Shown: piece after piece, positions 12,450 through 52,300 of the stretch | Numbering within the stretch: position 1 is the stretch's first letter | How the letters are laid out: each line of letters starts with the position of its first letter | NCBI GenBank assembly: GCA_914767715.1 | Contig: OU612070.1 | Location: 11,985,501-12,049,500, forward strand | Direction: 5' to 3' | DNA: 64,000 nucleotides | DNA from: Membranipora membranacea | Lineage: Eukaryota > Bryozoa > Gymnolaemata > Cheilostomatida > Membraniporidae | The notes under the pieces: model-generated | Database searches by the model: none | Seen by the model: the letters and a program-made list of their open reading frames with translations, nothing else | What the model was told of the DNA's origin: nothing | Made by a program: the position numbers and the translations under genes

Positions 12450-12987
12450 GTAAGGTTTCTTAATTAAAGTTCAGAGATCTCATTTTCATATACAGAAGGG
12501 GTTGTGCCTCCTGCTAATATTTTCCTCAACTAAGGTGTATCGGATTTAGTTGCTTATCAATGGCACGGGGATATCTATGGCCGTAACAGGAAGAAAGGTA
12601 TTGACTATTTCTGTCCATCCAAAAGCTTTGATCTGCTTGACAGCTTTGATTTCACTTACCCTTTTTTATTGGCAGTCATATCATTATCAGCAGAATACTG
12701 TGCGAATTACAGCAGTTAGAAAATAACAGTTAATAACTGAGTGCTGGTGTGAAAATCTAGCCATCAGCCAATCAACAGTCACCCTTTAAGACATGGGCGT
12801 ATATTAAAACTCTTATCATATCACTGATCGAGAGGTTGAAGATCACAAATCAATGTCAATTAGTGAGAACGTTAATTTTTTTTCAAGGATGATCCAATTT
12901 TCCTGTAGTTTGAGTTCTCCCACTTGCTTTTCCGCGCTGCATAACAGTAGAATGAATTTCAGTGAGACTATCTTTAATTATTAGGCT

Positions 12988-15962: not shown

Positions 15963-18900
15963 TTACTGAAAGTTCCCATACTCAGAGAACTGCTCTACAT
16001 ATTCCTTCAGTACTTGGTAGATGAGCACGTATTGAGCCTATAAAAAGAGAATACAACTGTGTAATGGAAAATATTTTGCAGAGTAGCGAGGGTATAATAG
16101 GATCGAATAGCTGGTTAAAACATCAATTTTACTCACCAATTCATAAATGAGAAGGGAATATGAGTGATTTGTCAGTTAGAGGAATAAACTTAATATGCAT
16201 GGAAAAGTAACCGTATATTCAGGCCCCGGTGCCAGCAGCAGCTCAGTGTCTGACAACGGTGCATCAACCAGCTTTCCAATAATAATAATTTTACTGCAAT
16301 TCTACAAACATGATGTACTACTAGAGTACTAATCCGCTCTTATAGGACACCAGTGTAAAAGTATATAGTATACTGTATTGCTAGTGTATACTCTGGTTGT
16401 CATACACTTGGGCCATGTAGGACTGGAGTTTGTCCGCCTACCTTTGTTCAATACTATAATATACATCTTTTTGGTTAAATAACCAACAAGTGTATCAACA
16501 CTATATCCACATATTGTTTGTTCTCATTGTTTTTGGCTGGGATGCCAAATCTATATCTAATATTTAGACGGCATCGCACAAAATGTGCTCGGACTAAACT
16601 AGGATTTATTTGACCACATGTAAAGAAACTTACAATAATTTCAATGAATTGTGGCCTCCTCAACCTGGCCTTTAGGACAGGACTATAGACATCTACTTGC
16701 TGCTCCAGTTTTAACTTGTCAAGGGCATTGTATGCGCAAATCATTAGGCCGCATCTTGTGGTCCCGTTTCTGTAATGAAAAATGTGATCATGGTAAGCTG
16801 ACATATTTTAACCCTAGCCCAAATTTGGTCCATTTGCCTGCATTTGCAGTTGCTATGTGACCAGTTTTATAGAGGAGTAACTGGAAGGAAGGCTAACTGA
16901 ATCAATCTTGATCTAGTTAAGTACCAGTAGGGGGTCTGTCAAATTGCCATGTTATGCCATCATTGACTTGTGCAATTACATAATCTTTAGTTTGTCTTAC
17001 CCAAAGAACAAGGATTAGAGGACTTCCACACGATCACTGTTTTGTTGAATTAATCCAAATATATTGCAAGCACTAACTATGCATAGTCAGGATCTGTGCT
17101 CACAATGACAGATGATGTATTCCATAACCATTCGAGGAGAAATTCAATCCTGACATCAGATTTGGGCTTTTACAGTAAAGACATTTGCTTACTTCATTTC
17201 AACATCATACTTTAACGGGAGGGTCAATATCTACTCACAGACACGTTAATATGGTGGTACTATTACCACTATTCTGCTTTAAGTTCTCAATCAAGTCATG
17301 TATCTGTACCAGCTCACTAGCATCAGGCTCCTGTATTCCGTCCCTAACGTTTTTGGCAGCCACTACTCTAACTTTATGCTTCGACTGTAAATAAAGTAAT
17401 AGAATATGGTGATGCATACAAAGTTGAGGTAGTGCCATGATAAGCCGATAGGTAAACTGTTATTTGTATTGGTGATATTTCCAGAATAGCTCTCTATGAT
17501 AACTCATCGGAACAAAACTTTCAGAATCTTTATTCCCTTTTAAGGTATGGTCCATATTAATCGCAAAATCATCAGCATTGGAATAATATCTTACCTGTTT
17601 AGTTGAAACTTGAAGGGTTATGACATCTGCAGTTTCACGAGTCTGATCATCATGCTGCCTTGCAACAGTGAACTTACCAAACATCATCTCATATTTATCT
17701 CCCTCGCAAGGATAGAACGCTTCCTGAAACAGTCGACATGATCATGAAAATTCCATTCTCGTAACATGAGTAGTACTCATGAAGAATGTATGAGTCAATT
17801 GATTTACACCATCAACCAAAGCAGAGTACATACAATGACAGATATGTTTTCATGAATAAGGGTGAACATTCTGTCCCTCCACAAACACATGTCAATTTAT
17901 GTGATTACAGGACGGAATTTCTCCTTTTTGACAAACTACAGTACAGTAATGCTACATTGGTCCACGTTTGAAACCTATTTAAAGCATATTCAGTTGAGAA
18001 GGTTTTTACTAACGGAACTTGATCACAAATTTCCATACTGTGTTTTTAACCATCAATCCATGATATACTCTCAGTGCATACACTGCATAGCGAATGTGTT
18101 TGCTCCGATTGGCTTCCCGTTGACAAAAAATCGTAGCAAACACTCCGAAAAAAAGGCATAATACTTTTAACTGCACAAAGCCTAATGTTATCATTATTGC
18201 GATGAATAGACGGTTTGAAATACACGAATATATAAATCCTCATAGTGGACTGGAAATAATTCAAAGAACGACAAGAATTGTGAAATATAAAGCTTACCTC
18301 ATCACTAAAACCCTCAAGCTGCACAATGATTTGAACACCTTGTTCTACAACCATGGTCCAAAAGTCCTCAACTGTGTTTTTCATTGGCAGCTGTGTTGCT
18401 ATCCAGTGATTTTTCTCTCTATATGTCTGCAACCGAAAAGTAAATTTTTATATATCGACTCTGCAGGGTGCCTGTTTGCCTGGGAAGAAGGTGGAATACT
18501 TAAAGGTTTGTCCTGTCAGTTGTCTGGGACTCAGAATCATAGTAACCTTGTACTACATATACAAGACCCAATTTCTTCAGTTGTTGATTACAAAACTTTG
18601 ATATCCTCACAATGAGCACCAGCAAAACACTGCAGAGATTATATTTGGTGCCCCTTGAAGAGACTTATCTGCCCAAATTACCAAGATAAACTATTTAGTA
18701 TCAATTAGAATATTCAAACTAATTTACACCCTGACTAGAATTTTGTCGGATGCTTATAGATACTTGAAATGAAACAGACAGCTTAGCATCATTTAACATG
18801 GGTTCTCTTGATGTTACTCACATCCATGAATACTGCATTGATGTAATCACCGCTAGATGACCCATTGATGTAGACTCTATGTGCATCAGCTGTAATATGA

Positions 18901-19514
18901 ATAGAGATACTCCACTATGAAAGTCAAATTGTTCAATGCGATATCAAATCTAACTGTTGACAGAACATGCTTGTTGTCCACAACACAGAAGTTTGTTGTC
19001 ATAGATGGCAGTGGCATTTCTTATAGAAAGTTAAGAATAGGCCCAAATTGGATAAGATAAGTTAAAATCTCTGACCTGGAATCCAAAATACAAAACATAC
19101 TAAGATATAAATTATAGAGAAAAACAATCCGTAAACACGCCGGTGTCAACTAGAAGGGTATGTCATGTCAAAATCCAGTCGATGTGAGTTTTCATGGCCA
19201 ATCAATTGGACAGCAAGCTAATTGGGGCAGATTCAATAATCATTTAAGCTATCATTGAACCAAAGATATGAAAATCAGTAACTGAAATTTGTAATGTTGT
19301 TGCGTTCAATGAAAGATGATATAACCCGAAATCTGTCAAAGGATTCTTATTCAGCAAAATACTAAAGTGACAGCATCGAAGCTCAAAGACCTGGTGCGCT
19401 ATTAATACATGATTTACCTGCTAGGTTCTCAGCAAATCTGTTCTTATCATGACTTGTGGACAGCTTTGCCTTACTGTACTGAAGGTGTACTGCATCAACC
19501 CGGCTCTGAGTTGA
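15963..19514 (-). CDS. Phosphatase D2 (pseudophosphatase) of the chimeric gene
   Basis: The exons are 19514-19418, 18889-18822, 18426-18298, 17723-17595, 17384-17239, 16769-16634 and 16037-15963. Visible motifs are GDYINAVFMD, WIATQLPMKNTVEDFW and the P-loop position, which reads C-L-N-G-T-T-R across the 17239/16769 junction. This preserves Cys-X5-Arg spacing but none of the other P-loop residues. The WPD loop is replaced by NVRDGIQEPD. The protein ends SEYGNFQ with TAA at 15965-15963. D2 domains of RPTPs are typically inactive and regulatory. Confidence 0.88.
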
Positions 19515-19819
19515 CTGCAATCAACTCATAGAAAAAATACTGTAAATGAATGTATTTTATATAGAGGTGAGCACGGGGTGTACACGGCTTGTCAATACCA
19601 ATATATCTTACCCAGCACTAAACATCAAGTTGACTGAAATTTCTCAACATATATAACATGAGAAACGCATGCCATGAAATCTTCATTTGAAAACATGATA
19701 CATCATCTTCACTGATACATTGTAAGCAATTGTAGTGCAAGCAATAATCACTTGCAAGAATGCCAAAAACTTATTTGTCTTTGAATTTTCTCACAAATTA
19801 TTATTTTTAACTCACTGAC

Positions 19820-22800
19820 CTCGTATTCCGTTCTGATGTTACTTGCATCTTCTCCTCCACCAAAATCTCTGATTAGGGCAGTCAAACTATCCGGATGGTA
19901 GGAGAAATCTTTTGTAGAGAGAAACTCGCAAACTGCGGTATACAGGAAGCGATACTGCTCCTAAAACGAGTAGCCAAAAACAGTTTTGTAATATTAATGA
20001 CCGGCAGATGCTACTCAGTCAAGTATATGATGCATAACCTCATCAAAAACATAGCCAAACAGGCTACTTCTACATGGTTAATCATATTAATGGTATTCAT
20101 ACCACACAAGTTAACCGTGTTGTAATGGAAAGAGAGTTTCACCAATTTATATTTTTTTATCAAACAGCAAAACACTTGTTTGCAAAAGTTATGTGGTACT
20201 TTTTTCAGGCATGCGTTTTCAAAGACCATAGACAGATATGCAGAGGAAACATACCACAGTCTGAATCATACGCGGTCGCCTCATTCTCATTTTCTCTACA
20301 CTCTCTAAAAACTGTAGTGTGTTCTCATCAGCTGCTTGCTTCACCAGATAATTCATAGCTATGAATGTTCCAGCTCTCCCAACACCATCACTACAGAAAA
20401 ATAATTCACAGTTGGTAACAGAAAGACATTTCAGGGCAGGAAGCCTTTTTGAGAGTGACTCTGCACTTGCGGCTTCCTAAGCTTAATTGTTGACGGAAGT
20501 TATTATTTTGAGACTGTCTGGGCTGGGAATAGTATTCGTGATGACAAAAGCTTTTACCAGCCAACGACACTCAAGATGACGCAATACGACACTTAATACA
20601 CTAAGAAAACAATCATTTGCAAATGATGTAATACTTTAATAATTTAGGAAGTCTCACATATATTACTGAGTACTTTGACTTTTAGCAAAATGTTGGTTTG
20701 TTTTGTTGTGTTACAAGTCAACAGTAATTATTATGTTCAACCTGAGAAAACTGAGGAATTTCACCTGCAGTGCACAAGTAATGGAGGAGCGAGTCTGGCA
20801 ACGCTTGTTTGGATTCTGTTATAGAAGGAGATGTAAGCTCCTGTGTCCTGAGGCACTCCATGATCAGGCCAAGACAAGAAGTAGAAATGTTTGATGGTTC
20901 TCGTTTCACCATCCTGTAAAGAAATGGTACAAATCGAGAAGGTAACGTGATTTGTTCATACATTTCCAATCCACGCTGTCACAACATGATGTTTGACAGG
21001 TCCTTACTCATCAAGCTACCTCCAGCGAGAACAAACTTAGCAGCTCAAGCACTGGCGTATATATCAGTGGTCTCAAGGGAATCCCAATAAATGCAATGAA
21101 ACTATCATTCAACTCAGGTGTAATTATTTCTTCAACATACAAATTTACTCAATAAACTACTATGTATACATCTATAGTGCACAATACCTTGGTATACTGA
21201 AAGGTTCTGACTGTAAAGTCAGCCCATTCCTCGCAATTAGTTACTGTCACCGAGATTTCACCAAAACTCATCGCTGTATTCATATTATCAGGCCAGTACT
21301 GATAGCATTTAATCTGTAAGAGGAAAGTGTATACTATGGCTAGATACATCAAGATAACCGCAGAATAAATTGTAAGAAAACACTAATAAAGGCATGACTT
21401 TAACCTGCCTTTACTTGTTTCAATTCACATTTACATTCATCTAAATATCAAAAATATGAGAACTCCTTTCACTAAAATTAAAGCATACAGCAAGCAGTTT
21501 GTTTGTACAGGATCACAAGGGATTATTTACTTGTTACTTACAGCAGCTCAGTAAGAGAAAAATATCATACCATACAAAAATAACTCACCCTTGAAAGCTC
21601 AACCACTTTTGTGACCATCACAATGCCACTTGGGTTCTGCTCCAAAATCATCAGCCAGAAATCGTCAACAGTTCTCTCAATCGGACCTGAAAAATTTGTA
21701 GGAAAATAAGAGAGTTGCCATTGATTATAACACAATAGATCTGCAACAAAGATTTTAATAAGCGTACACCAACGGTGCATCATACTTTCAGGGTGATGAA
21801 TTGAAGCGATTCCGTTACTAGTAACAGCAGCACTAGTTATTTATTTGTGTTTAAAAGAAATAACTTCTAGCTTCTAGCGTTTAGCTTAGTTAGCACCTTA
21901 ATGTCAGCTAGATCTAAGTTGTAGTTTATATAAAATTATCAAGGAATATAATTAGCTAGCCACAAATATTGATATTCCAAGCATTTGCAAAAGAGGGAAA
22001 CCTTATCATCGGCTGGGGTTACTCTATCCCTTTGGGGTAGTTGATATATTAAAACTTTTGCAATTTCTTTGCTGGCAAATGACACTCACCCATTGCTGCT
22101 ATGTATCCTGGGTATTTCTTGTACCCCTATAAAAAATATGAGATGAAAACTCAGTAGTGACATCGATAGTCTTGAAACAGATAACTCCAAAAGCATCAGA
22201 GGTTGGATAGTCTATCTAAGGTCTTTTTGTAATGGGTACTTGGATACTAGCAATAAGCGGTCTGCAATGGAGATAACATACTCTAGACCCATTTAGACCT
22301 TGGGTTTTGCACTTTGAAATCATTCCTATGAGATTGTTTAGATATGAAAAGTGGTTGTTTTTTGCTTTCCTAAAGAATAATTGTTTGTTATTTATCTGCT
22401 ATCTCAGATTTTTCTCGTAAATACAAGTCACATGGGAACGATGTTAAATGCTCCCCTGCTTTAAGTTTACTGGTTAATTGGGTAATTTACTCCTCCAGAT
22501 GCTTACCTCCATATGTGAAGCATTGATGTAATCAGTCCCTCTGTCATTTCGACTAAGCTTCACTGAATTTATTGATACTAGATGATCATTTCATTAGAAC
22601 CTAATGGATAACTTGGGAGTCACTGGAAGCCCTGCTACTGCAAATGTATATACACGGTAAATCTGGTCTAAAAACCTAGGGACTGAGCTTTTGTAGCCTA
22701 AAATGTTTTATCCAATCTCATCTTCTGAGCCTAAAATTAATGGGTATTATGGTTCCCATGCATTACCAATAGAAGCGATGTACTTTGTCACTGAATTGTA

Positions 22801-25800
22801 CAAGCAGGGAGCTTGTCCCCTAACTTCTGGTACAAGAGAGCCAATTATAACACTTTTTGTGTGGGAGTTGTTTTTCCAACATCAAAGTGGGCATAACTCT
22901 TGACTATTCCATATCATACCTGGGTACAGCTCCTTGTATCTACTTTTTCCGTCGTTGATTGGTAGAAGTGCCACAGATCGATTTGGTAAAGGCATGTTAT
23001 CCAGAGCCTAATAATGAATGAAATATAATATAGTTGACCGTAAATTTTAAAATTGTGATACGCATTTGGTAAGTACATAAAACAAAATTTCTGACCACAA
23101 ATACAACACATTATTTCAGAAACATGAAGCACAGTCTGCTTTTTACAAAGAGAACATCCAACTTGCTTCTTCGAACATTAGTCACGTATATGCTGGGGAC
23201 CCAAGTGTATATTCAATTAGGTGGGGTTTAAAATTTGGCTATATATCTTGTAGGTTGTTTCATCTAGTCTGGAGGTGGCAGACTCCTTCTTTTTTTCACT
23301 TCCTTTTACAGAATTGAGTGGATAGGGTTTGAAAATTGTCTCTGCTAGGGTTTGACAGTTGTTCTAGTAGGGTTTCCATGCTGATCGCAATGGTAATATT
23401 GTACCTTACACCAAGTTACACAATAGGCGGCTAATTGCCAAAAACTCTGCGGGGAAATGGGAATGTGATCTAAAATGACTATAAGGTTTTAAATCATGAA
23501 AAAACTGAGAGAGCATGTCAGAAAAAGTGAATTTGAAAGTTTTCATGGGTGTGCTAGCATTAATTCAATAGCCCAGTAACAGCCCGAAACTGTTACAATA
23601 TCCCCTCATATCATCTTTGTATAGCAGTCATTTAAGCAAAACCACTTTTTTAATTTTCCTGCTGTCTGGAAAACTGGCTACGGGTGTTCTTAAAGATCTG
23701 ATTTTTATGAGGACCGTGTATTGTCCCTCCCATCACATAACACCAGTTTTCAATGCTCTGAGTGTGTCGTTTTGTGAATGGTACATATTTTTTAGGTCCC
23801 ATTTTAGTTTCGTAAAAGCAGTTTTTATAAGGTTATATCTCATGTTAAGCCAAAATGTACTCCTTCAAGTAGTAAAAAAGTGTGTGTTGCATTGATGGAG
23901 TCAATACAAAGCCACCATAGTAAAACCAGATTTATGCAACCATTCAAACCATTTTTCCAGGTGGCAGCGAAATTGAATCGGCAGTTTTGCATTAATGATG
24001 GTCATATACATGTCATAATGGGGTGTTGTTACTATTATTGGCCGCATCACCGCTATTTAAAAAATGAAAAACTTTAGATCCACCAATTAAGACATGCTCG
24101 TTTTCGTTTGAAACAATATCATTGTTTTATTATCACTTTCCCTTTTGGCGGCCGCACTTTTGGCCATAAGTAGCCGTGTGAGATCTCAAGTTCTCACAGC
24201 TCAGGAGATTTCAGATAAAGAGAATGGAGCCAGGTGATACCAGACGACGTCAACCACTTCAAAATAATGTATATAATTAAAGTCCAACCTCCGCCTTTTT
24301 GGAGGGGATTAAACGCTGACATTTGAATAATATATATAATTAAAACATTTTTATTAGACATAAATTAAAGCCCAACCTCCGCCTTTTTGGAGGGGATTAA
24401 ACGCTGACATTTGAATAATATATATAATTAAAACCTTTTTATTAGACATAAATTAAAGCCCAACCTCCGTCTTTTTGGAGGTTTCAAACGCAAACATTTA
24501 AATGATATTGATAATTAAAACCTTTTTATCAGAAACAAAATCTAAATCAAATCTCCGCTTTTGTCAAGAGGATGGGCAAATGCAATCTCCGGTTTTTTGG
24601 CCATGTGCACCCGCCGTGGTGAACCCCTTTGCATATAAAAACCGGGGGAACATCAAGGCGGCTCAGTTTTTTTTGGAGAGCCCTCAGCAGCATATCACTC
24701 TGCAATATTTTGATAATACTATTATTTTGGAGCGTATTACTATTATTTTGGAGCGTATTACCATTTTGGAGCATACTACGACTTACTGTTTTGGAGTTGA
24801 CCTATTCTGACCTTTTGCACAGGAAACTTTGACGGTATGATAGAGCATGGTTTATTTTTTACAATGACTGTTTAAACTTATTTCCACCATTTAATCAAAA
24901 TAAAGTCTTATTTTAATGTCGAAAGGCATCTCAACTATAAGTCATTAGTAAATTGAACTAACATCTGCTTGTAACAAAATTCTAAAGAACAATGTTGTGG
25001 ATAAATTTGATTAGGTAAACAAAACACTTTTTGTATGGAGTTGCCTTCTTCCTCTTACGGAAGAAGTTAACTCCATACAAAATAAACATGAGCAAAATGA
25101 ATGAAATAGTGGTGTCTGTTCTGCTCGGGTATTCGGCCCCAAGTGGGTCGAATATGCGACAGCCGCCCGTTGCGCACCACATCAACCCAAAATCCTCAAT
25201 GAAGTTCTAGCCACATTTTGCACATGCTGGCACCGGACTTATCTTACATCTGCCTTTTTAAGTCTGAGGGCTTTCTATTTTTTTTGGTGTGTGTATGTGT
25301 TTCTACCTGGACAAAAATGTTGAGGGCTAAAACTACCAGAAGCCGACTACACAACATTACTCACCCTAAACTCCTCATCAATCTTGATTGCTTCATTTTC
25401 TATGAATGATGCCAGTAGTGCCGGATCAAGTCCGTCTGTCTTGAATCTATTATTGTTATTCTCATAGGGGTTATATTCTCGCTCCTTCTGTGGAAGCTGT
25501 TTGACAGGAACAACTAGAAGAATAGAATGAAAAACTCTATCTGAGGAAAAGCTAGTCTATATACATCCCTTTTGATAGATGCTAATCATCACACTTGAAA
25601 TAAAAGATCATTTTTATGTAACACTGCGCTGAGGACACAAATGTGAGACCAGGCAAAGATAAAGGAAATAAGTTCCTGATAGAAACCCACACCAAACTGA
25701 TAAGCTAATCCGATTAAATTTGTACGCTTTGACGTGGGTTGCGGTTTTCAAAAGTATCATTTTGATCTTAGCACACATGTCAGCTCAGGTACAATGATGT

Positions 25801-26604
25801 GTAAGCCGTTCAAAACAAAGGGGTGATGGGTGGAAACAAGGTCTTTCAGATTTTAAAGCATCCATGAAAGTACGATTTTTATAATCAGAGCTGTTTCTCC
25901 AGATAATCAGCTTCAAAACAAGCTCAAAATTGACCCTCATAGACCACTACAAGTTGTGTTATGAGGTGTTGAAGACGAGACCCGAAAGCCTGGGTGTGAG
26001 GTCACATCAGGGTTTTCGACCAATATTCGAAAAAATTTTGTATATGGAACTGTTAAAGTGAAACCGACTTATTTCTACGTCAAAAAATGTGTTAATCTCA
26101 TTCAACTTTTTGTTTTGGATTAATATCTATTATGACAATACCTATGTTGGATTGACAACTCGAAAGTTTACGAGTCCAAAGATTCTAATGGTAGACATAT
26201 ACGCAAACTGTATGTCTATGACATCACAGCCCCCTGCGCAAGACTCGCGAGCGAGTGTCAGGACGGCCTTACATTGATAAGTCATGACCTCAGTCCTAAT
26301 TGACCAATTGAGCTGTTCTTGGGCTCATTTTGAAGCTTATAAGCTGGAGCAGGTCCTCTGATTATTTAGATGTTTATTTCATGGATGCTTTAAGTCAAAG
26401 ATCTAAGGCTAAATGTAACTTTAAAAATAGAATAACTTGTCGTGTGAAATTATTGTAAAGCTAATACACATACCAGGTTTTGTAGGTTGTGTCTGTGATG
26501 TTTCCTTGAATTGTGGAGACTCTTCAACCACAACATCAGTGTTTATCATCTCAAGTGGATGGGCATTCTTGCTATCTGGTTTACTCTCCGCTGCATCTCT
26601 TCTC
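19820..26604 (-). CDS. Juxtamembrane and phosphatase D1 of the chimeric gene
   Basis: The exons are 26604-26474 (juxtamembrane, with VVVEESPQ), 25513-25365, 23007-22920, 22562-22507, 22126-22090, 21686-21589, 21313-21188, 20913-20765, 20390-20255 and 19960-19820. D1 retains RNDRGTDYINASH, the VDDFWLMILEQ segment, KCYQYWPDNMNT and WPDHGVP. The catalytic cysteine spans the junction 20765/20390 and reads HCSDGVGRAG. Cys and Arg of CX5R are kept, but the Ser/Thr after the Arg is Ala and an Asp sits next to the active-site Ser. Gene X has HCSSGVGRTG. In the family that Ser/Thr assists cysteinyl-phosphate hydrolysis, so activity is probably reduced (inference). Confidence 0.88.
22563..22620 (-). 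other. Remodelled splice acceptor in the chimeric gene
   Basis: Compared with gene X (46436 and upstream) a stretch of roughly 60 bp is missing. It comprised the original polypyrimidine tract and acceptor plus the first codons (NDSR) of the exon. The deletion fused upstream AAATTCA to GTGAAGC, creating a new AG (22563-22564). From it the exon would start in the correct phase 1 at 22562, losing only four to five residues. The new acceptor has a weak pyrimidine tract. Confidence 0.75.
24110..25186. repeat. 1.1-kb unit-A-specific segment with 88-bp tandem repeats
   Basis: The segment lies in the intron between D1 exons 25365 and 23007. Unit B passes directly from GAAACAATATC to CACCCAAAATCC at about 48020-48030. 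An 88-bp unit repeats from about 24284, 24372 and 24460, with a decayed fourth copy near 24548. Each unit contains the CCTCCGCCTTTTTGGAGG hairpin. Then come about four units around TATTTTGGAGCGTATTAC (24715-24800), and a hairpin at about 25028-25083. No terminal inverted repeats or coding region were found. An ATC may be duplicated at both ends. Confidence 0.7.
25028..25083. repeat. Near-perfect hairpin
   Basis: TTTTGTATGGAGTTGCCTTC with the following TTCC pairs with the reverse complement AAGAAGTTAACTCCATACAA immediately downstream, across a loop of about 8 bases. It lies inside the unit-A-specific segment and could be the end of a foldback element. The orientation of function is unknown. 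Confidence 0.7.
25853..26393. mobile_element. TTAA-flanked MITE, 533 bp
   Basis: The insert 25857-26389 begins AGCATCCATGAAA and ends with its exact reverse complement TTTCATGGATGCT (13 bp). It is flanked by TTAA at 25853-25856 and 26390-26393. The paralogous site in unit B (48693-48696) has one TTAA and no insert. Imperfect inversion continues roughly 60-80 bases inward (AATCAGAGCTG... against AATCAGAGGACC...). There is no transposase reading frame, so it is non-autonomous. TTAA targets are used by piggyBac and Kolobok-type transposons, and which one mobilised it is not decidable here. It lies in the intron after the juxtamembrane exon. Confidence 0.92.
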
Positions 26605-27091: not shown

Positions 27092-27170
27092 CTTCTTCTC
27101 AAGACAACTACCACAACAATCACGATTGCTGCAACTACAACTGCAGACACCACAGGAGCAATGTTTGGAT
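27092..27170 (-). CDS. Fusion exon: FTP start joined to transmembrane helix
   Basis: The 79-nt exon begins at the FTP acceptor (TTGATAG|ATCC) and reads (D)PNIA from the FTP domain. It passes without a frame break into PVVSAVVVAA, the single-pass helix of gene X, and ends at LRR before donor GTAGGG. In gene X the same helix is preceded by PELI and a Pro/Thr-rich stalk. In gene Y PNIA is followed by LGKPTKQ. The exon keeps phase 1 at its start and phase 2 at its end, matching the flanking exons, so splicing from FTP exon 27678 into juxtamembrane exon 26604 remains in frame. Confidence 0.93.
27156..27163. other. Duplication junction at 8-bp microhomology GAGCAATG
   Basis: The octamer GAGCAATG occurs at 443-450 (gene Y FTP exon), at 27156-27163 and at 49300-49307 (gene X transmembrane exon). 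To the left of 27156 the sequence follows the 49.3-kb locus (coding for APVVSAVVV on the minus strand). To the right of 27163 it follows the 451 locus (TTTGGATCTATC and onward). This is the expected signature of a tandem duplication joined at microhomology. On the minus strand the octamer contains ATT GCT (Ile-Ala), read in the same frame in both parents, so the coding frame is preserved across the junction. Confidence 0.93.
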
Positions 27171-27677: not shown

Positions 27678-30600
27678 CTAGCTTTTGGTAGACCTCGACT
27701 TCAACAAGACATAAGTTTCCAACTCTTTCTATAGCTACATACTGAGCCTCTCGAGGGGGATTCACCATTACAGTGTGCCTATACCTATTCCCTGTCACAT
27801 CTAGCATTTCAACCTTTGTCCATTGGCTAGGAGTTAAAGCTGTCCCCTCAGTCATGCTTGGCTGAATATTAGAAATGTATATTGTGCCTCCATTAGAGCG
27901 GTCAGCTGAAAATATTTCACGAGAAATACAATGATATGCATTATCATTGAAACACTAACTATTTTCATTAAAAACCAGTAGTGTTCAGTGCATTTTTCTG
28001 GTAGTTAGAAATCATTGCTTTTGAAACACTGGATGGAATAAATGTACAATTCGTTCTCTTTTTAGTGTAAGAAACAGTTAATCTTAAATTATAATCACTA
28101 TATAGGAAGTCTAAAAATGAAATCCAGAACCGATATGTAAATTGAAAGTTCTGGTCGCGCTCGATTAACTGCAGCAAAACTTTCCTCACCTCTGTTTCTC
28201 AAGTGTACATAAATCTCAGATACAGGGTAACTCTTTCCGAGATCTACGACCCACCACTGTGCAAGTGTCTCCTATCCATCTGTACTAGTGTACCTGTTTA
28301 GTTTACCATCAACTGCTATGGAGCTCTTCCCTCCTCCAGCATCACCAGTGTATGTACTTCTCTGTTTTGTAACTTTGCCAAGAGCAATGTTCTGATCTAT
28401 CCAAAAGAGGAGAGGTTTATGAAACATTTTAACAAAAATAAACAGAAGAGGAAATCATTCACTTCAGAGTTAAGATTAGAGGAGGCATTGCTTTCCCTCA
28501 ATGAATATTATTCTTGGATGCTGTATTCAACACTGCTCAGCCAAAACCTGCTTCATATGTTCGTGAAGTTATCGGCTAATGCTCAACTGGTCAGTCAGCA
28601 AATTTACTGCTGCCTATGAAAACCAGCAATACGCATTGTGTATGGTGGGTGTTTTAAATCCATTACCCAGAACTCTCTCCTTCATTTTCAAGACTCCAGT
28701 CAAACCAAAGCATATTATTATCATGGTCTTCAATATTGACATTCTTCTCTTGGTTATGCCACCATACAAGTGCAGCTCTTGCTTACAGGTGACGCGCTGG
28801 CCTGACAGCAGCATTCAGATCATTGAAATCTTGTAAAACATTTATGTCTGCTGCAAATAAATGCTCTCCTCACTAAGTTGCATGCATTGCATTTGTGACT
28901 CGGTGATATGATTGAGTGATTTTAGTAATAGTTTACACAAGAAGATTATCTCAGACTCCACCATGACAAGTAAACAGAGTCGAGGTCTCAGCGCAGCAAA
29001 AAAGACCTGCATGATACTAATCCTACACAACTGAGAGTAGTGACAACTGTATCCCAAACAATCCCAGGTGATTGCAACTCAAATTGTTCATATAATCCAT
29101 CAGTTCTTCTGTATCAACCAACAATAAACGATAATATCATGGGGAGACAACTCAATGTCTCGTGCAGCGAAAACCCATGTCGGACGCCTCAACTGCTCAC
29201 TATTCACCAGAGAGTGCTTTACAGGAACATATAAACTCAATTATATCCATATTTACAGCATTTCCTGGGAATGGATATTACACAGACATTAGAACCATAT
29301 CAATATCTATGCTGTGTTCAAATCATGCAGGACAGAGTGCATAGATGGAAAAAACAAATTTGTGAAAATCATACTATCCGAATGTTAAATGAAAGAGGCT
29401 TGAATTTTGACAACGAAAAGAGGAAGTTAGAAAATCATTAGTATGTGAGAGCACATCGTACAACCCATACAGTAACACGATAAAGGGTCAATATCAGATC
29501 AGCATGTATCAGGACTCAAGCTGATGATTCTCAAAATGAAAGCTGATAACATTATAAGAGACAGCTGTTTGAGGATTGCAAGCTTTTGAAAAGCCCCAAA
29601 ATTCTGATTAGAGCCAACAGCATTGTGACAAAGGGCCGAAACAAACACTTACACCGAACACAGCTGGAATAAATAACTAGAGATTAAGCATAGCTACATT
29701 GACACATCACATTACAGTTACATTGACAGACAGTCCTTAGATTGATAAATTCTATCATAGAACCACTAAAGTTATTCTATAGAGAAGTTACTCCACAGGA
29801 ACATGTGTCAGGATAGATTAGAAATAGATCAATCACAGAGTTAAGGTTAACTCTTACCTCTAGGCTGGTACACTTCTACTTCAGCAATGTTTAGAAGCCC
29901 TCCAGTTTTGACCAATGCTACGAACCGGGCCTTCCTTTTGGGATGGAGCTTTACAACCTGGATTGTCTCCTTTTCAAGAGTGCTTGCTTCAGTCCACATT
30001 GAAGCAGTAAAGTCAACTTCTTGCCCTATTTTATCTTGCGGGTTAAACAAATCGCTGACTCCAGTATACACTGTAATCCCTGCTGCTCGGTCATCTGAAA
30101 CAAATAATTCAGACATCAACAAACAAATGTTTTTTTCTCGCGAAATTGACTTATTATTGTATCATAAGTTACAACATGCGGCAATGGCACTCTTTTCTGA
30201 GACTGAAATGTTTTTTTTTCACTATGTTATTTACTACGCATCTTCATGCTATTAATGGGACAGTAAAACTGAGATAAACTGTTAATTTTAGTGAAATGTT
30301 GCTTTCTTTGGTTCTTCAATTTGCTTATTGTTCTTTCTTATGACCATAACTTGATTCAAAATTACAGGAAAAAAGCAAATTGGAACAAACCGCATATTTT
30401 GTTTTGATAAAGCGTAGACTGACACTTGGTAATTAATTTGCTTTCTAAGGTGATTCTGATTTGACAGGTGACAAAATAAGCTGTTTTCAAACTTTTTTGA
30501 TCAGCTACATATTCAATAGCTAAGTGATATATCATTTCAATAAAGACAAGTTAGGACCGAATGTGTAGAAGAGTTATACACTCGAGGGTGGCGGAGGCTT

Positions 30601-31555
30601 GAGCAATCAACCTTGAAAGCTCCTCCAATGGGATTCGATCCCACAACTCCTGCGGCGCCAATCAGAAATAGCAAGCGCGCTAACCGATTGGGCCATCTCA
30701 CCATCCCAAAAAAGAATGTGATGATGCTGTTAATTAGCATGCCCGCTATGAAAAATAGTAGGGGCAAACAATTGACAAGGTAGGAAAATCCCCAACCGTG
30801 AATCTTAAACCTGCAAGCACTATTACTATCATTGAAGTGTCCCTTTTATGGTTAGCTAGTTTATTGTGGGATAACTCATCATGGAGATCATGGTTAGAAT
30901 CTGTACACAGAGCATATTGAGCTCATATTATTTTCTAATCATTCTAATTCATTGGAACATTTTTATAACTTTTTCTCAGCCCTAATAGGCCTAATCTTGT
31001 TAGTATCTTATATCAAGTGCCTTGCCTGTAATTATACTATTTTCGATCAACCAAAACATCAGCCTAACAAATATACTATTGTTATTTTTTAATGTAAAAA
31101 ATGATCATTATTACCTATTTTGTGGTTGCGGTTGTCCTGGTACTTACTGCCAGTTATGACTGCTTAGTTTAAATCTCCATAATTCTTTACTGCGTTTGCT
31201 CTGTTTGCTGTTTTTCTGCCAAAGCCAATACATTGGCTACCAACAATCAGTACACAGAGTGAGAGTTAAGTTCTCATGACCAGATTATGTAGTTCCTAGT
31301 CGCTATTTGCATAAGCAGCAAACATACCTCGGCCTATCCTGGCATAGACATGTATCTCATCAATCATGAAATCATCTCCCAGATCAACAATCCACCAGTC
31401 CCTGCTGTGACTGCCTTGGGTGTGTATACCCTGTTGGGAGTAATCTCCGTGTATGATTCCATCAACAGCATTGGATGCACTCCAGTTCTTTCCAGATTCA
31501 GTGAAGGTGTTTATCTGGTATGCAGGTTTATTGAGAGCGATGTTGATGCGGTCAC
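27678..31555 (-). CDS. FTP lectin domains 1-2 of the chimeric gene
   Basis: Exon pairs 31555-31328 plus 30094-29858 and 28396-28190 plus 27905-27678 encode two FTP domains. The first shows NIALNKPAYQ, NAVDG, WWIVDLGDDF and DEIHVYAR. Against gene Y its first exon has a 6-bp insertion, two whole codons, near the WWIVDL strand. The second half-exon pair shows KARFVALVKTGG and EVEVYQ. The third exon is the one with the stop at 28272-28274. The fourth shows NPPREAQYVAI and EVEVYQK. Confidence 0.88.
30624..30718 (-). repeat. tRNA-derived SINE relic (unit B copy)
   Basis: This is the orthologue of the relic at 4236-4330. The A-box-like part (TGGCCCAATCGGTTAGCGCG) has changed by one base and the B box GGATCGAATCCC is unchanged. 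It lies in the intron between FTP exons 31328 and 30094. Confidence 0.65.
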
Positions 31556-31899: not shown

Positions 31900-32745
31900 G
31901 CTCCATTCTTGCAATTTTTAATCTGGCCTCACCGGAATTTGAACTTGGGCTGAGATCAAACACTCCCACCGCTCAGCCACGCTGTGCCGCTAAAGCTAGC
32001 AAAGCTCAGTGCGAAATGATCCAGGTGGTTAAATTTAATGATGTAGTGGATGTAAGTAGCAATAAATAGATACAAAAAAAACAAGTCAAACCACCAGTAG
32101 TCAAAGAGATGATATGTATATAAAATCTGTATTCATCAGGATTTGAACTTGGTCAGCCTGTCGCGCAACAATTATGTTATAATGTTAAAATTGTGGTATA
32201 TTTTTATATAATTGTATATTGTATATGATTGTATGTAATATTATAATTGTAAATAATTTATTATGTAATTGTATGATATATATAATTATATATAATTTAT
32301 AATTGTATGTTATATATAGTTATATGTATAATGTATTTTTATGTGATTTGTAATTATAAATAATATATAATTGTATATAGAATATAACAATAATTGTATA
32401 TTATATATAATTGTATATAATTATAAATAATACATAATTGTATGTAGAATTCAACTGTCAACAATACATAACTGTATGTAATATATATTTGTATATATTA
32501 TATTCATAATTGTATATATTATATAATTGTTTATTAAGTATGGTTGCCAAAAAAGTATTAAAAAAATCCGTCTCCACCAGAATCCGGGCCTCCGCGCGAC
32601 AAGCATGTTATAATTGTGGTATATATAACAATATTAGCTTACACACATTCACCTCCTTGCTTCTATTTGGGTCACAACCGCGAATCGAACTTGGGCCACT
32701 TGCACTGTGATCGAGCACACTAGCCACTCGGCCACCAAAGCCACT
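31900..32745. repeat. SINE relics and AT-rich minisatellite (unit B copy)
   Basis: Same arrangement as 5500-6380: tRNA-like heads at about 31925-32000 and about 32665-32745, 3' bodies near 32140-32200 and 32560-32620, and degenerate TATAATTGTATA repeats between. One short repeat in the second head (GGCTAGTGT duplicated in unit A) is single here. Confidence 0.7.
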
Positions 32746-37349: not shown

Positions 37350-39656
37350 GACTATCTTTAATCATTGGATTTCATGTAAAATCAGAAATTCACAAGCTAA
37401 GATTCTGTTCTTCATTCGTCCATAATCATCTGAATGTTGGTCCATGTCTGCCTGCCAATTTTTATTAATGAGAAAGTTTATTTGTTATTTTTGTCAAGTA
37501 TTTCTCAATGCCTATCCGCATTTATCAATTTCTATTCTTCCCTACCTGTATTGCTAATAGTATTCAAATGTGTTAAATTACTAGCTGTCTTTGAGCAAAA
37601 GAAATAAACTAACCCTTTTTCGTGGATCGGTATATGCAGTGGAAGACAAAACATCACTACTACCCCCAAACAAAGGCAGTCAAAATATTTGCAGTTCATC
37701 CTGTAAAACACTAATCTGCTGCCAAAAGATAATATTGTTGAGTTAATCTTTTTACTATTGCTAAGATATATTTTTATATTTTTATTTGTCAATTATCTGG
37801 TATGTTTTCAAAATCTTTGATAATTTTTATTTCTATCTGCTTGAACAAATTTTTCTATGTTACTAAAACTTTCATCTTTCAGAAGCCTTAAGTTTGAGTT
37901 TATCTCATTTACTTTTTAGTTGGAATTGCTAGTTGAACCCCACAATCGCGCAAAACACTTTACAATAATTTTCACTTTTCCATTTCTTGCATTTTTGCTT
38001 GATAACTGTACTACCAAATGAATCTGCTAATCCTATCACCATTCAACATATATTTGTATAGTAACTCATAGGTATAGATGACATAAATATGTATATAAGA
38101 GGTTGAAAGTTGGAGAAACTACACTACACCACACAACACAACCATCAATATATTGAAGCAGTAAACAGTAAACTGCTCCGAGTCTGAAGGCGTTGAAGAA
38201 ATCATCAGAAACACATAATTCGTAGACTCCTATGGCCTGATATCACCCAAAATTTGCTATGGACATTCATATAGTAACCTGACAGAGAAATGATGTTGTT
38301 CAGGGGGGGGGGGGGGAATCCAACTGTAAACTCAGATAAACTCACGTCCGTTTATAGTTGTCGATACCCTGTGATAGCGTGTGAGTAACCTTGATGTTGC
38401 TTGTTTTTTTTTGTTACCGGTATCAGTACGGGTCTACGGACTAGATCCTGATGGAGCACAGAGAGTTTAAGGTTTGATACCCATTGCACCATGGTGGCTG
38501 CCTACATTGTAAACTCATATATAGCAATTATTTCTTTGCCCACACTTTCTGACTAGAAGCGGCCTCAGACATATATGCCAAACACTGAGTTAAGGTAGGT
38601 TTAGAGACATAAAGAATCCCAAAATCAGGTGGAAGGTGTTACCTGAAACGGTCATTTGCACATACGTTTGAAAATATTACTTGTCTTGTACCAAAAAGAG
38701 GATGGTGTCATATTCGGGCAAAATTATATAATTTGTTCTGTGGGAAGCCAATGAGGTTTTGGAAACAATCCATGTATAAACAAGCAATGGCCATGAATTG
38801 TTGGAAGAACTAAGTTTGACGAATATTGACATGCGGAAACTTGAAGTTGATGGAACAAGTTTGTTTTGACAAGATATATTGGACGATGCTAACAAGTTGG
38901 TGGTGGTATTCCTAACGGATGTGATTGAGGATACAAACTCCAACCAGCTAATGCTTCAACAAGACTGCACATCAACTCAAATTCTGTAATCTAATGGAAA
39001 CAAAACTCTCTAAAGGGATGATTTCAGCAGGTCTGTTTCGCAAAGTGTATTTATTCTACGATTGTAATACCTGAATAAAAAAATAGAATGTCATTTTAAA
39101 AGGGAAAAGAAATTGTTGTGGTAAGTCACAGAGTAAGCTTTGTTCGATCGAATGCAAATCATTGCACAGAAATTTTCCTATAGAATGACAAAAAGTTAAT
39201 AATAAAACTAATAGAAAAGATGCTCAGAGTGATCATTAAAATAGAAAGATACTAGCCATTTTTTGTCATATAAAGTTTTTCAAAATAAATATTTAAAATT
39301 GGTTGAAAATTGAGTGCAAAAACATGCACACAGCGAGTATTAGTTCTTTTTCTGCAAGTAATATAGGTCAATCTTCCAGAGGCAGCTTGCAATTTGCACC
39401 ATTCAACATTATCAGCCAGAAAGGAAAAAAGAAGGAAAACAGATAAATGCAATTGTGAGTAATATCAAATTCACCAGGTAATTCAATTTCCAATATAACT
39501 ATGAACATATTATGCAGATGTGCCAGCAGAGGAAATAAAATGAAAGAAATCATTGCAAAAACTGTCAATTCTTGTTAAAATTATCTTCGTTGAATTAAGA
39601 ACATTCTTCTGAATTGGTAGGGGTGCACAAAAAATGGTTAATGATCACAGCTGGTT
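37350..39656. other. 3' intergenic spacer between convergent RPTP copies (unit B)
   Basis: Homologous to 13185-15962. It holds a run of G at about 38301-38316 and no recognised gene. The 570-bp stretch present in unit A at 14821-15390 is absent at about 39068. Confidence 0.5.
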
Positions 39657-46300: not shown

Positions 46301-49300
46301 TGTTAAATGCTCCCCTGCTTTAAGTTTACTGGTTAATTGGGTAATTTACTCCTCCAGATGCTTACCTCCATATGTGAAGCATTGATGTAATCAGTCCCTC
46401 TGTCATTTCGACTGAGCTTCACTCGGGAATCATTACCTAAAACAAACCATGTACCATTCAATAATTGACAGGTCTTATGAATTTATTAATACTAGATGAT
46501 CATTTCATTAGAACCTAATGGATACCTTGGCAGTCACTGGAAGCCCTGCTACTGCAAATGTATATACACGGTAAATCTGGTCTAAAAACCTAAGGACTGA
46601 GCTTTTGTAGCCTAAAATGTTTTATCCAATCTCCTCTTCTAAGCCTAAAAATAATGGGTGTTATGGTTCCCATGCATTACCAATAGAAGCAATGTACTTT
46701 GTCACTGAATTGTACAAGCAGGGAGCTTGTCCCCTAACTCCTGGTACAAGAGGGGCAATTATAACACTTTTTGTGTGGGAGTTGTTTTTCCAACATCAAA
46801 GTGGGCATAACTCTTGACTATTCAATATCATACCTGGGTACAGCTCCTTATACCTACTCTTTCCATCGTTGATTGGCAGAAGTGCCACGGAGCGATTTGG
46901 TAAAGCCATGTTATCCAGAGCCTAATAATGAATGGAATATAATATAGTAGACCGTAAATTTTAAACTTGTGATACACATTTGGTTAGTACATAAAACAAA
47001 ATTTCTGACCACAAATACGACACATTATTTCAGAAACCTGAAGCACACTCTGCTTTTTACAAAGAGAACATCCAACATGCTTCTTCGAACATTAGTCACG
47101 TATATGCTCGGGACCCAAGTGTATATTCAATTAGGTGGGGTATAAAATTTGGCTATATATCTTGTAGGTTGTTTCATCTAGTCTGGAGGTGGCAGACTCC
47201 TTCTTTTTTTCACTTCCTTGTACAGAATTGAGTGGATAGGGTTTGAAAATTGTCTCTGCTAGGGTTTGACAGTTGTTCTAGTAGGGTTTCCATGCTGATC
47301 GCAATGGTAATGTCGTACCTTACACCAAGTTACACAATAGCCAATTGCCAAAAACTCTGCGGGGAAATGGGAATGTGATCTAAAATGACTATAAGGTTTT
47401 AAATCATGCAAAAACTGAGAGAGCATGTCAGAAAAAGTGAATTTGAAAGTTTTCATGGGTGTGCTAGCATTAATTTAATAGCCGAGTAACAGCCCGAAAC
47501 TGTTGCAATATCCCCTCATATCATCTTTGTATAGCCATCATTTAAGCAAAACCACTTTTTTAATTTTCCTGCTGTCTGGAAAACTGGCTACGGGTATTCT
47601 TATAGATCTGATTTTTATGAGGACCGTGTATTGTCCCTCCCATCACATAACACCAGTAGTCAATGCTCTGAGTCTGTCGTTTTGTGAATGGTACATGTTT
47701 TTTAGGTCCCATTTAAGTTTCATAAAAGTAGTTTTTATAAGGTTATGTACACCTTCAAGTAGTAAAAAAGTGTGTGTTGCATTGATGGAGTCAATACAAA
47801 GCCACCATAATGAAAACAGATTTATGCAACCATTCAAAGCCAGTTTTCCAGGCGGCAGCGAAATTGAATCGGCAGTTTTGCATTAATGATGGTCATATGC
47901 ATGTGATGTAATGGGGTATTGTTACTGTTATTGGCCGCATCACCGCTATTTAAAAAATGAAAAATTTCAGATCCACTAAATAAGACCTGCTCATTCAGTT
48001 TGTTTTCTTTTGAAACAATATCCACCCAAAATCCTCAATGAAGTTCCAGCCACATGTTGCACAGGCTGGCACCGGACTTATCTTACATCTGCCTTTTTAA
48101 GTCTGAGGGCTTTTTGTTTTTTTTGGTGTGTGTATGTGTTTCTACCTGGAAAAAAATGTTGAGGGCTTAAACTTCCAGAAGCCGACTACACAACATTACT
48201 CACCCTAAACTCCTCATCAATCTTGATTGCTTCATTTTCTATGAATGATGCCAGTAGTGCCGGATCAAGTCCGTCTGTCTTGAATCTATTATTGTTATTC
48301 TCATAGGGGTTATATTCTCGCTCCTTCTGTGGAAGTGGTTTGACAGGAACAACTAGAAGAATAGAACGAAAAAATCTATCTGAGGAAAAGCTGGTCTATA
48401 CGCATCCCTTTTGATAAATGCTAATTATCACACATAATTAAAAGATTATTTTTTATGTAACACTGCACTGAGGACACAAACGTGATACCAGGCAAAGATA
48501 AAGGAATTAAGTTCCTGATAGAAACCCACACTAAACTGATAAGCTAATCCGATTAAATTTGTATGCTTTGACGTGGGTTGCAGTTTGCCAAGAGTATCAT
48601 TTTGATCTTAGCACACAGGTCAGCTCAGGTACAATGATGTGTAAGTCGTTCAAAACAAAGGGGTGATGGGTGGAAACAAGGTCTTTCAGATTTTAAGTCA
48701 AAGTTCTAAGGCTAAATGTAACTTTAAAATTAGAATATAACTTGTCATGTGAAATTATTATAAAGCTATTACACATACCAGGTTTTGTAGGTTGTGTCTG
48801 TGATGTTTCCTTGACTTGTGGAGACTCTTCAACCACAACATCAGTGCCAATCATCTCCAGATGATCATCAATCTTGTTATCGGGTTTTCTCTCCGCCGTA
48901 TTACTTCTCCTGCAACGAATCTCAGACTCATTACTTACCTGACCAATCAGTCTGGTTTGCATGTCAAATCGTTATACCAACACAAAGAGCTGTGATACAA
49001 TATTTTCTGAAGGGATAATTGCATCGAATGGAGTTCTCCTTCTCCTCAAAGAGCATCGAAAACAATGGCTTCCAGATCTGAGAAAAGAGCATCGAAAGGG
49101 TAGGTTACTCGTAGACAAAAGAGATTTATTGTTTGATTGTTGGCACTAGGCCAAAGTCATTCTCATGATAACCTGATGCTATGATGCCGATTGCTACTAA
49201 TTTGGATGTGGAAGAAAATTATATTTTGACCTTACCTTCTTCTCAAGACAACTACCACAACAATCACGATTGCTGCGACTACAACTGCAGACACTACAGG

Positions 49301-52300
49301 AGCAATGATTAGTTCCGGAGGTGTACCGCTGTTAGGGTTGACTGGATTAGTTGGGACTGTCGGTGCTTCTACTTTTGTAGCTGAAACATGATCAAAATGG
49401 TTAGCAAAAATCTGAGCAAAAGAACACATTATCATTGACTGACTGCATAGATTCAGGAGCCTGGACTTGATGTGCAAGCGAGAAATCTTATCGGTGTCTT
49501 CAAAAATGACTTGTCAATCTGTTTATCAGTTTAATCGACCATCACATACATTGTGGAAAATTCTCAATATGCTATCTGCTAATGTACACCAGGAAGTGAC
49601 TATCAATGTTTCTCCAGCTTACCCTTTCCTGTAATTGGTGGTCCGGATTTTATAACCTTAGTAACACCATCCTGTAAACAATTATGAAGAATTCAGATGT
49701 TGGCTTGTCTTGTCTTATGTGGGGGGAGGGTAGTTGTATGAGACCGTATACTCCAGAGAACAAGTGGTTGGCACCCCTAGTGCTCAAAGACCCCTGAACA
49801 ATTCTGATTATTACTGATAGAACACATCCTTGATGTTAGAAGGATGAGTATGTTTCATCAGTCAGTTTTGTGATTATGGGAGTTGTCTTAAATAACCCAA
49901 TTTTGACAAACCAAACTCTGAACTGTGAATATCACACAGACAGACTGCTGTACAGGGGTCCATGCTTGGTTTTGAAATTTCACGTAAATGGCCTAGTTTC
50001 GTAAAATGACGAGTTTCTATTAGGGTTAATACAACAAAATTGTTAATATCGACACTAATACTGAAGCAAACTATGCACAATAGAAGGAAGATTGAAGCAT
50101 ACCTCATATTTCACTGTGAATACCGGCTGGACCAAATACTCATTGCCTTCAGTGACTGGCTGGTTTGTATAATTACCATACACTTTTCCATCTCCAAGAT
50201 AAAACTCCAGGCCATTTTGGAGAATGTCATCAGGTTGAAACAAAGCAGCAATATAACAATCCTCAGAATTATTTTTGAGATTTTCAGTCTTCTCTTCTAA
50301 ATTATCCAAGTCATCTAATATACAGGGTGCTGCAACACTTCTCTTCCTTTTCAATACAGATGATTGCTGTTGGGCGATTACAAGATATGAGCTGAAAGAA
50401 GAGAATCAAAGTCCTAAAATCCTCAACAAATCAAAGGGGTTACCGTAAAAGTTCAGCTTGTCGTTGTAAGTTGTCCAGTTATAAGACGTTACCCAACCCC
50501 TGTGAATGACATTTGCAAGGAATAAAATTTAAACATCATGGAAATGGTTAGTAGACCAGGTTTCATCTAATTAAAGTCTCGGTTATGCCAAATAATACAG
50601 TTTCTATCATGGTTCAGAGGTTACTGAATTATATAAAACTTGATTGAGTGATAATTTACAACGGCAAGTTCCTTGCTATCTCAATCATGCAAAACAATAT
50701 GTATAAAGAAACTTGAAATTTTAAAATTCATCAACGTTGACAACTTCATGATAATTTTGATGAACCGCTACTGTATCAACTGACAAGGGAAATTTGAGAT
50801 ACTCATAACCTAGCTAGACTCTGCATATCTCTCAACATAGGGGGAGAGATGAACTATAGATTTAATTAGTAAAGCCATTCTCAAGACCTACCTGACGTTA
50901 TAGTTAGGAACATTGACAGGGTAAAGTTTGACAAGGACACTTGGATGGTCTCTGGCTTCTGTCACCTCTAACTCAGACATGTTCTTTGATGCATTGACTG
51001 CAATGTTGACAGAATAACATGGTGGTAATTGCCAATATCTCATTATATTATATTGTCTATTATTGCTGGACATTTGAAAACAAAATGGCAGTTAACCACT
51101 AAGATATAGTAAAGACTTAAAATGAATCTAATTTGACGTCCCAACATTTTGCTGCTCAGTGCTAGATTAAGTTTGCTCTAAATGTCCTACTTTAAGTAAT
51201 CTTATTCCACTGGTAAGTTGGCGATAGCAATTGCTCATCAACAACCCGTGCATGAAAGATGGAAACTTGTAACTGAACTGTACTTACATGCCACTGCTGT
51301 GTAATCTGTGATTTGTATTGTAGGACCACCTCCTACTACATTCCATACAGTGCTGTTACAACTGATTTTTGTTGCAGATTTCAGACCACAAATTTCTGCA
51401 GCTTCATCATAACTTGTATTAGTTGGCTGACCATCTGTACATGTCACCTAAATAACCAATAACTAGTTTGGTCTCAACAATAAAGACTGTTTACTGGAAA
51501 GTCAATGCAAGCATAGGTGAATGAGATCAATGAAGTGACATGTTGTTAACAGTGAGAAGGCTAGACAGTCACTAACAACCAAGAAATTAACACCAACCAA
51601 GAGTAAAACAGTTGTATCCAAGCTCTGGACTTTTTACTACCGGATTGATATGACTAGCCCCAAGAGCTTAACGATGTCTGATTTCTATATCTCAGTATTA
51701 CTCGATGTAGCAAAATGGTGCTGACATTGTACCTGCAATTCATAACTTTCTTTTGGTGCATTGAATCTATTAAGTTGTTTGAACTTAAAACTAATGCATC
51801 CCTCTGTAGTGTTCTGACTCTCTAACACAGGCATCTCGTCTGGAACTGAAATGAAGAGAATGAGTATCTACATGAAATGGATCTAGTGTGCATCAAGGCA
51901 TTAAGGGCAATTGGAAATTAATACTGGTGTCTGGTAAGAATGCCAAAGGAGTGATCACCTTTTTTGCAGGTACCAGTTTCAAGCAGTAAATCAGAAAATG
52001 ACTACCAAAATACAAAACACCTAGGAAACTGATTTGAGTTTGCCAACATGAGAATACAACAATGCACAACGTGTAATATAATTTTAAGATGGAAGTTCTT
52101 AGGTCAAGTTAGTCACAAATTGCTGACTACCAACAGTAGTTTCAGTCCTGGAACATGTTGAATCATCAACCAATAACGTTCACTAACCACTAAGGTGTAT
52201 GTTATGAATGGTGTTGTTCGAATGAAATTGTCATCAAGGACAGGAAACAATATGTCCGAGTTGGTGACAGTAAGTCTGATGTTTTATCTTGTAATATAGG

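Follow-up and report, generated by a model that had tools for sequence, protein, structure and literature searches.

Does an exon that runs from a lectin-like domain straight into the membrane helix of a receptor phosphatase mark the birth of a gene, or a copy on its way to loss? This question is raised by a stretch of 64,000 nucleotides from the bryozoan Membranipora membranacea (contig OU612070.1, positions 11,985,501 to 12,049,500), here referred to as the window. A reading of the sequence alone (the sequence-only reading) had proposed that a tandem duplication fused a lectin exon to the transmembrane (TM) exon of an upstream receptor phosphatase (RPTP), creating a new gene with both parents retained in the window. 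We analyzed the junction, the gene around it (here named G4) and the related genes of the window and its flanks (G1, G2, G3, G5 and G6).

The receptor phosphatase array

Judged by its sequence, the locus is an array of receptor phosphatase genes of ~200 kb or more, whose members are predicted to combine F-type lectin-like (FTP) domains, FN3 domains, a furin region, a TM helix and the phosphatase domains D1 and D2 (Table 1). FTP, FN3, furin region, TM and PTP exons were found in this order and on one strand in G2, G3 and G6, and from order, strand and phase we infer that FTP, FN3 and PTP exons form single genes. The motif SVLKRKRSVAAP is taken to be a furin site, as in the sequence-only reading. 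Two further members were located farther away (L023 on the plus strand and L024 on the minus strand). The frame from the TM exon to D2 was without stop in G2, G3, G4 and G6, and frameshifted in G1. The best named relatives were RPTPs of Watersipora and Bugula.

Table 1. Genes and exons of the array. Positions in kb are relative to the window start, flanks included; all others are window positions.
Feature	Position	Strand	Remarks
G1	FN3 from 123.8, furin region 121.7, TM 120.9 kb	-	5' part outside the sequence examined
G2	FTP 99.7-94.3, FN3 93.9-88.9, furin region 87.5, TM 86.5 kb	-	
G3	FTP 64.7-58.9, FN3 58.4-51.7, furin region 50.4, TM 49.4 kb	-	
G4 (chimera)		-	between G3 and G5 in the array
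G5	FTP 5.2 to -1.2 kb	-	three FN3-like matches, one weak furin-region-like match
G6	FTP -28.5 to -34.0, FN3 -36.5 to -46.1, furin region -47.6, TM -48.5 kb	-	
G3 FTP exons, 5' of its FN3 exons	58940..63471	-	63471-63238, 62791-62576, 61483-61250, 60855-60613, 60287-60054, 59164-58940
G3 FN3 exons and furin-site region	50103..58424	-	stalk missing in G4
G3 TM exon	49236..49380	-	RPTP parent of the sequence-only reading; TM-D2 frame open
G5 FTP3a exon	251..457	-	with flank, closest to the FTP side of the junction
G4 candidate first coding exon with signal peptide MNCKYFDCLCLGVVVMFCLP...	37546..37699	-	hydrophobicity and donor scan, alignment; homologue 13299-13464 (G5)
G4 FTP1a exon (first half of F-type lectin-like domain 1)	31328..31555	-	gene model; Pfam PF22633/PF00754 in joined model
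G4 FTP1b exon	29858..30094	-	gene model, Pfam
G4 FTP2a exon	28190..28396	-	phase 1-1; carries TAG at 28274-28272
G4 FTP2b exon	27678..27905	-	gene model
G4 chimeric exon	27092..27170	-	FTP a-type exon start joined at CATTGCTC to TM exon
G4 juxtamembrane exon	26474..26604	-	acceptor AAG, common to G6
G4 exon X (juxtamembrane to D1)	25365..25513	-	gene model
G4 first D1 exon	22920..23007	-	gene model
G4 D1 exon shortened by 55-bp deletion	22507..22562	-	substitute acceptor TTCAG, frame kept
G4 other D1 and D2 exons up to TAA stop at 15963	15963..22126	-	gene model
G4 D1 exon with Trp->Leu	21589..21686	-	alignment of relatives
G4 D1 exon with catalytic loop HCSDGVGRAG	20255..20390	-	alignment

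The upstream RPTP with its TM exon at 49380 had been taken for an FN3-only receptor, but FTP exons are present in G3. These have phase-1 borders, two joined domains scored 68.5 bits for PF22633, and the FTP exons of G5 share 36.6% identity with the stretch. A signal peptide scan from the G3 FTP exons to the TM exon returned 11 hydrophobic ATG starts, none of them with a phase-1 donor. A secreted FTP lectin gene and an FN3-only RPTP were rejected as the pair of parents, since G3 itself, as well as G2 and G6, has FTP exons.

Within G3, a tandem duplication at 60864-63995 (~1.1-kb copies, 2 kb apart, 96% identical) repeats an FTP b-type exon. The three a/b pairs of G2 are similar in kind.

G5 (L012-L014) showed FTP1-4, FN3-like matches and a candidate signal peptide; up to the next gene it lacked any TM or phosphatase match, and from -1.3 to -28.4 kb no TM or D1 match was found (E 1). 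By its sequence it is a lectin gene whose receptor part may be lost. In G1 (110.9-120.9 kb, L019-L020) a 7-bp deletion was found in exon X, and TT instead of GT follows one D2 exon; G1 is probably another pseudogene of the array, besides G4 (see below).

The window repeats itself, with 440-27166 matching 27153-49310. The repeated pieces were mostly 90-95% identical, and 78-83% identical beside the junction on the TM side. Both copies of the block contain an inverted PTP gene in pieces: D1 exons with stops remain at 10407-12456 (plus strand), D2 exons and the final D1 exon at 35558-37346 (plus strand), and the two copies seem to have lost complementary parts of the gene. Additionally, the long FTP intron carries, in both copies, an AT-rich segment with direct and inverted self-matches (32200-32550 and 5806-6150).

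The junction exon and the sources of its two sides

The chimeric exon is real. It is bordered by a usable acceptor (gatag) and donor (gtaggg), both of standard type, and DPNIA|PVVSAVVV is read in one frame. The FTP-exon part, ATCCAAACATTGCTC (compare position 457), starts like an FTP a-type exon, and the TM-exon part begins with CATTGCTCCTGT... (compare position 49310). In a three-way comparison the switch point fell on an 8-bp word, CATTGCTC, common to both source exons. At least 8 bp were shared by a fraction of only 0.000255 of 200,000 random position pairs in the window. Its frame is identical in the two exons (DPN-IA-L and LI-IA-P), and phase 1 is the starting phase of the FTP exons as well as of the TM exon, so that the reading frame was kept. 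The sequence-only reading was thus right about the fusion without frame break, about the fit of exon phase to the neighbours and about the coordinates of the junction exon and both partner exons. An 801-bp query across the junction matched end to end only at its own locus among the 15 matches listed (genome search, best candidates scored). G4 shows an in-frame junction between two genes, and candidate parents are retained.

What the fusion produced was described as a new combination of lectin and phosphatase, but G2, G3 and G6 already have FTP exons together with FN3, furin region, TM and PTP exons. As predicted from the gene models, G4 is a family member minus its stalk, and the fusion shortened an existing lectin-phosphatase. 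The locus would be a tandem birth-and-death array of FTP-FN3-TM-D1-D2 receptor phosphatase genes, in which the joining of an FTP a-type exon via the 8-bp word to a TM exon would have left G4 without FTP3, FN3 domains and furin region.

The FTP side of the junction was closest to FTP3a of G5 (256/284 aligned bases), followed by FTP3a of G6 (248/281) and FTP4a of G5 (222/267). For the TM exon of G4, the parent named before (49236-49380) is no clear source. Over the first ~205 bp after the junction, 13 informative sites were shared with G6, which lies 76 kb away, and 4 with G3/G2, and a 23-base gap is common to G4 and G6. Beyond this point, the 249-bp segment had 1 site for G6 and 15 for G3/G2.

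We weighed two origins, a tandem duplication joining a G5-type FTP3a exon to the TM exon of G3, and a deletion from FTP3a to TM inside one G6-like gene, whose phosphatase half was later replaced by the G2/G3 type. The deletion is a serious possibility, to which we give slightly less than an even chance. It would account for the sites and the gap beside the break and for the juxtamembrane exon (9 sites for G6, 5 for G3/G2). However, the remainder of the segment, exon X (0 for G6, 6 for G3/G2) and the later exons together (8 against 184) side with G3/G2, the entire 249-bp segment of G4 is equidistant to G6 and G3 (225/249 each), and the repeated block of G3 3' half, spacer and FTP set suits one duplication. 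Past the juxtamembrane exon, the phosphatase half is of the G2/G3 type and would probably have become so through the duplication itself or by later gene conversion.

Of the claimed birth by tandem duplication, the in-frame fusion exon and the repeated block are upheld, but a deletion within the array yields an equal layout. One duplication with conversion and one deletion with exchange both fit the sequence.

Between 26389 and 27166, 84 of the 616 bases aligned with G3 differed, compared to ~5% of non-exon sites overall. This segment may be of mosaic origin, or conversion may have ended near the break.

State of the chimeric gene

The G4 model was spliced by hand on the basis of homologous exons, and takes in the FTP exons, the chimeric exon and those for the phosphatase. 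It comprises 23 exons with 3024 nt and 1008 codons including the final stop, with AG/GT at every internal border. In the 1007 codons ahead of the final stop there was one in-frame stop and no frameshift. Pfam recognized PF00102 twice, as in G3, and two FTP stretches; with X at the stop, PF22633 and PF00754 scored 59.4 and 53.4 bits with two stretches each, above the curated cut-off. The two PTP domains follow a single TM helix, APVVSAVVVAAIVIVVVVVLRRR, as read from the sequence. FTP3, the FN3 domains and the furin region are absent from the model, so that the architecture without FN3 stalk and furin-site region proposed earlier was borne out.

Neither the FTP nor the phosphatase part is intact. 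Two FTP domains had been claimed for an open frame, but an in-frame TAG at 28274-28272 interrupts FTP2a, where G5 (AAG) and G6 have Lys. Similarly, D1 is not complete. Compared to the homologous G3 exon, a 55-bp deletion took the native acceptor and the five codons GNDSR. The native acceptor and the exon length are retained in G1, G2, G3 and G6, and GNDSR is present in G2, G3 and G6 (G1 is frameshifted upstream of it).

Furthermore, G4 alone among G1, G2, G3, G4 and G6 has lost the Thr of the catalytic loop. At the last Ala position of its loop HCSDGVGRAG, Thr was found in 117 and Ser in 3 of the 120 relatives listed, which are mostly vertebrate PTP epsilon and hence not independent. WPDHGVP is present in D1, and the Cys and Arg of the loop are kept, but with Ala after the Arg the loop does not match HCxxGxxR[S/T]G, which is, like WPD, a D1 motif of receptor-type PTPs with tandem phosphatase domains. 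A Trp that G4 has changed to Leu was present in 119/119 aligned relatives. Where G3 and G4 differ and a column was at least 90% uniform in the 120 relatives listed, the common residue was found in G3 at 10 positions (2 of them deleted in G4) and in G4 at 4.

Two other candidate lesions were rejected. The juxtamembrane exon has an AAG acceptor, the only non-YAG of 45, but G6 shares it, with an open frame from TM to D2. The change from Ala to Asp in the catalytic loop also occurs in G2.

In a comparison of five paralogues, the phosphatase changes unique to G4 were 20 nonsynonymous (N) to 4 synonymous (S). The corresponding counts were 9:9 in G2, 10:2 in G3 and 12 N plus one stop to 7 S in G1; on the long branch of G6, 71 N and one stop-type change stood against 116 S, the G6 frame itself being without stop. 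The share of 20/24 N in G4 fits the neutral share of 0.788 (P of at least 20 = 0.40), and has P 0.0008 at an omega of 0.27, the value of G2. The unique changes of G4 differed from those of G6 (Fisher, 3.4e-5), and P was 0.13 against G2 and G3 together (19:11). As the ratio of G3 is as high on 12 changes, the N excess of G4 is by itself no proof. In the FTP half the unique changes were 10 N, 5 S and 1 stop in G4, 15 N and 7 S in G5, and 20 N, 11 S and one counted stop in G6, whose FTP exons are read without stop despite this stop-type change. Pairwise dN/dS was 0.43 (0.28-0.70) for the phosphatase halves of G3 and G4 and 0.59 (0.31-1.41) for the FTP halves of G4 and G5, values that count against a dead gene.

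G4 has retained its introns and carries a disabling lesion, as unprocessed pseudogenes do, and its reading frame is not uninterrupted because of the TAG in FTP2a. We consider that G4 is an unprocessed pseudogene or a dying gene, with a probability of about 0.64. The working new gene of the sequence-only reading is not supported, given this TAG, the D1 deletion, the lost catalytic-loop Thr and the ratio of unique changes. Since the spacer 5' of the candidate signal-peptide exon and the 3' end were retained, G4 could once have been transcribed, and an early G4 could have made a short receptor with its FTP domains adjoining the membrane. Decay would have followed with the nonsense codon in FTP2a, the loss of the D1 acceptor with five residues and the loss of the catalytic-loop Thr, while the unique phosphatase substitutions appear unconstrained.

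The best of the other readings is that G4 works as a stalkless lectin phosphatase, FTP1(-FTP2b)-TM-D1-D2, in which the TAG exon or all of FTP2 is skipped, or in which the TAG is polymorphic. FTP2a is of phase 1-1, so that the frame survives the skipping of FTP2a or of FTP2a together with FTP2b, and the substitute acceptor of the shortened D1 exon preserves the frame as well. When the 25 residues differing between G3 and G4 were polarised with the reference P0001, which is about equally far from G1, G2, G3, G4 and G6 (307 to 319 identical of 350-351), 8 had changed in G4, 11 in G3 and 6 were unclear; the protein of G4 has thus not changed faster than that of G3. Moreover, a neutral simulation over 954 codons, which assumes half of the G3-G4 intron divergence and applies intron indel rates to exons, gave 3.0 expected stops and 6.0 expected frameshifts, with one lesion or none in 1/1000 runs. 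By half, the phosphatase half was free of lesions in 4/1000 runs, and the FTP half had at most one lesion in 23%. Against these points stand the TAG found in G4 only, the loss of conserved D1 residues and the excess of N among the unique changes, and we regard a working G4 as unlikely.

Still less probable, in our view, is a broader scenario in which G4 would be expressed by FTP2 skipping as a stalkless lectin phosphatase with a loop altered toward a pseudophosphatase, within a fast-turning lectin-coupled array with a possible role, in a colonial animal, in recognizing microbes or telling self from non-self. That only the phosphatase half is in use, with an internal promoter giving rise to a short or cytosolic phosphatase next to a dead FTP half, is very unlikely: the sole stop sits in the FTP half and the other half is free of stops and frameshifts, but most of the damage to conserved sites falls in D1, the catalytic loop included. 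Least credible is an assembly artefact by false joining of haplotypes or reads, at the junction or in one copy. Similar tandem copies such as these are known to cause errors of assembly, but the 204 kb around the window contain no N, the two copies are set apart by differences at ~5% of non-exon sites and by entire blocks of 112-4122 bp, their inverted PTP pieces differ, and the join falls on microhomology.

Comparison with known receptors, lectins and chimeras

The parent family, with F-type lectin-like, FN3 and tandem phosphatase domains, is of more interest than the chimera itself, and can be named a candidate glycan-sensing receptor family on the basis of its predicted domains. No paper title among the open-licence matches listed describes an RPTP with an F-type lectin, and an open-licence literature search found no paper on bryozoan receptor phosphatases. 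Among FTP proteins of 0.55-1.75 times 954 aa, none of the 120 listed of 219 had PF00102, nor did any of the 7 matches of a second search, limits of size that the parent proteins may exceed, so that these counts are no evidence of absence. None of these 7 matches was named as bryozoan, and the search yielded no FTP outgroup.

Like RPTP sigma, epsilon and LAR, the genes of the array have PF00102 twice, and these three gave the D1 domain of G3 its best sequence matches in the PDB. Unlike them, the array genes carry FTP exons N-terminal to FN3. The part of a review of RPTP ectodomains considered here (PMC10815196) names no lectin domain in an RPTP; the word "lectin" occurs there once and does not refer to an RPTP domain.

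On the lectin side, FTP2 of G5 matched the F-type lectins striped bass FBP32 (3cqo) and the lectin domain of streptococcal hPAF (4gwi) weakly (E 5.5e-05 and 1.1e-04). FTP1 has HTQ and FTP2 is without the His; the THT His of FBP32 is aligned with an Asp of FTP2. This His belongs to the His/Arg motif of fucose binding. Sugar binding by FTP2 is doubtful from its residues.

G4 shows base by base how a phase-1 multi-domain receptor array can shed its stalk with the frame kept, and that such products may decay. In Drosophila yakuba, according to Rogers et al. 2017 (PMC5460883), tandem duplications that ignore gene borders make chimeras by exon shuffling. A tandem duplication crossing gene borders would make G4 comparable to these chimeras. 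It differs from them in that its partners come from one family, the join falls inside an exon, and the outcome is a shortened member with a broken frame.
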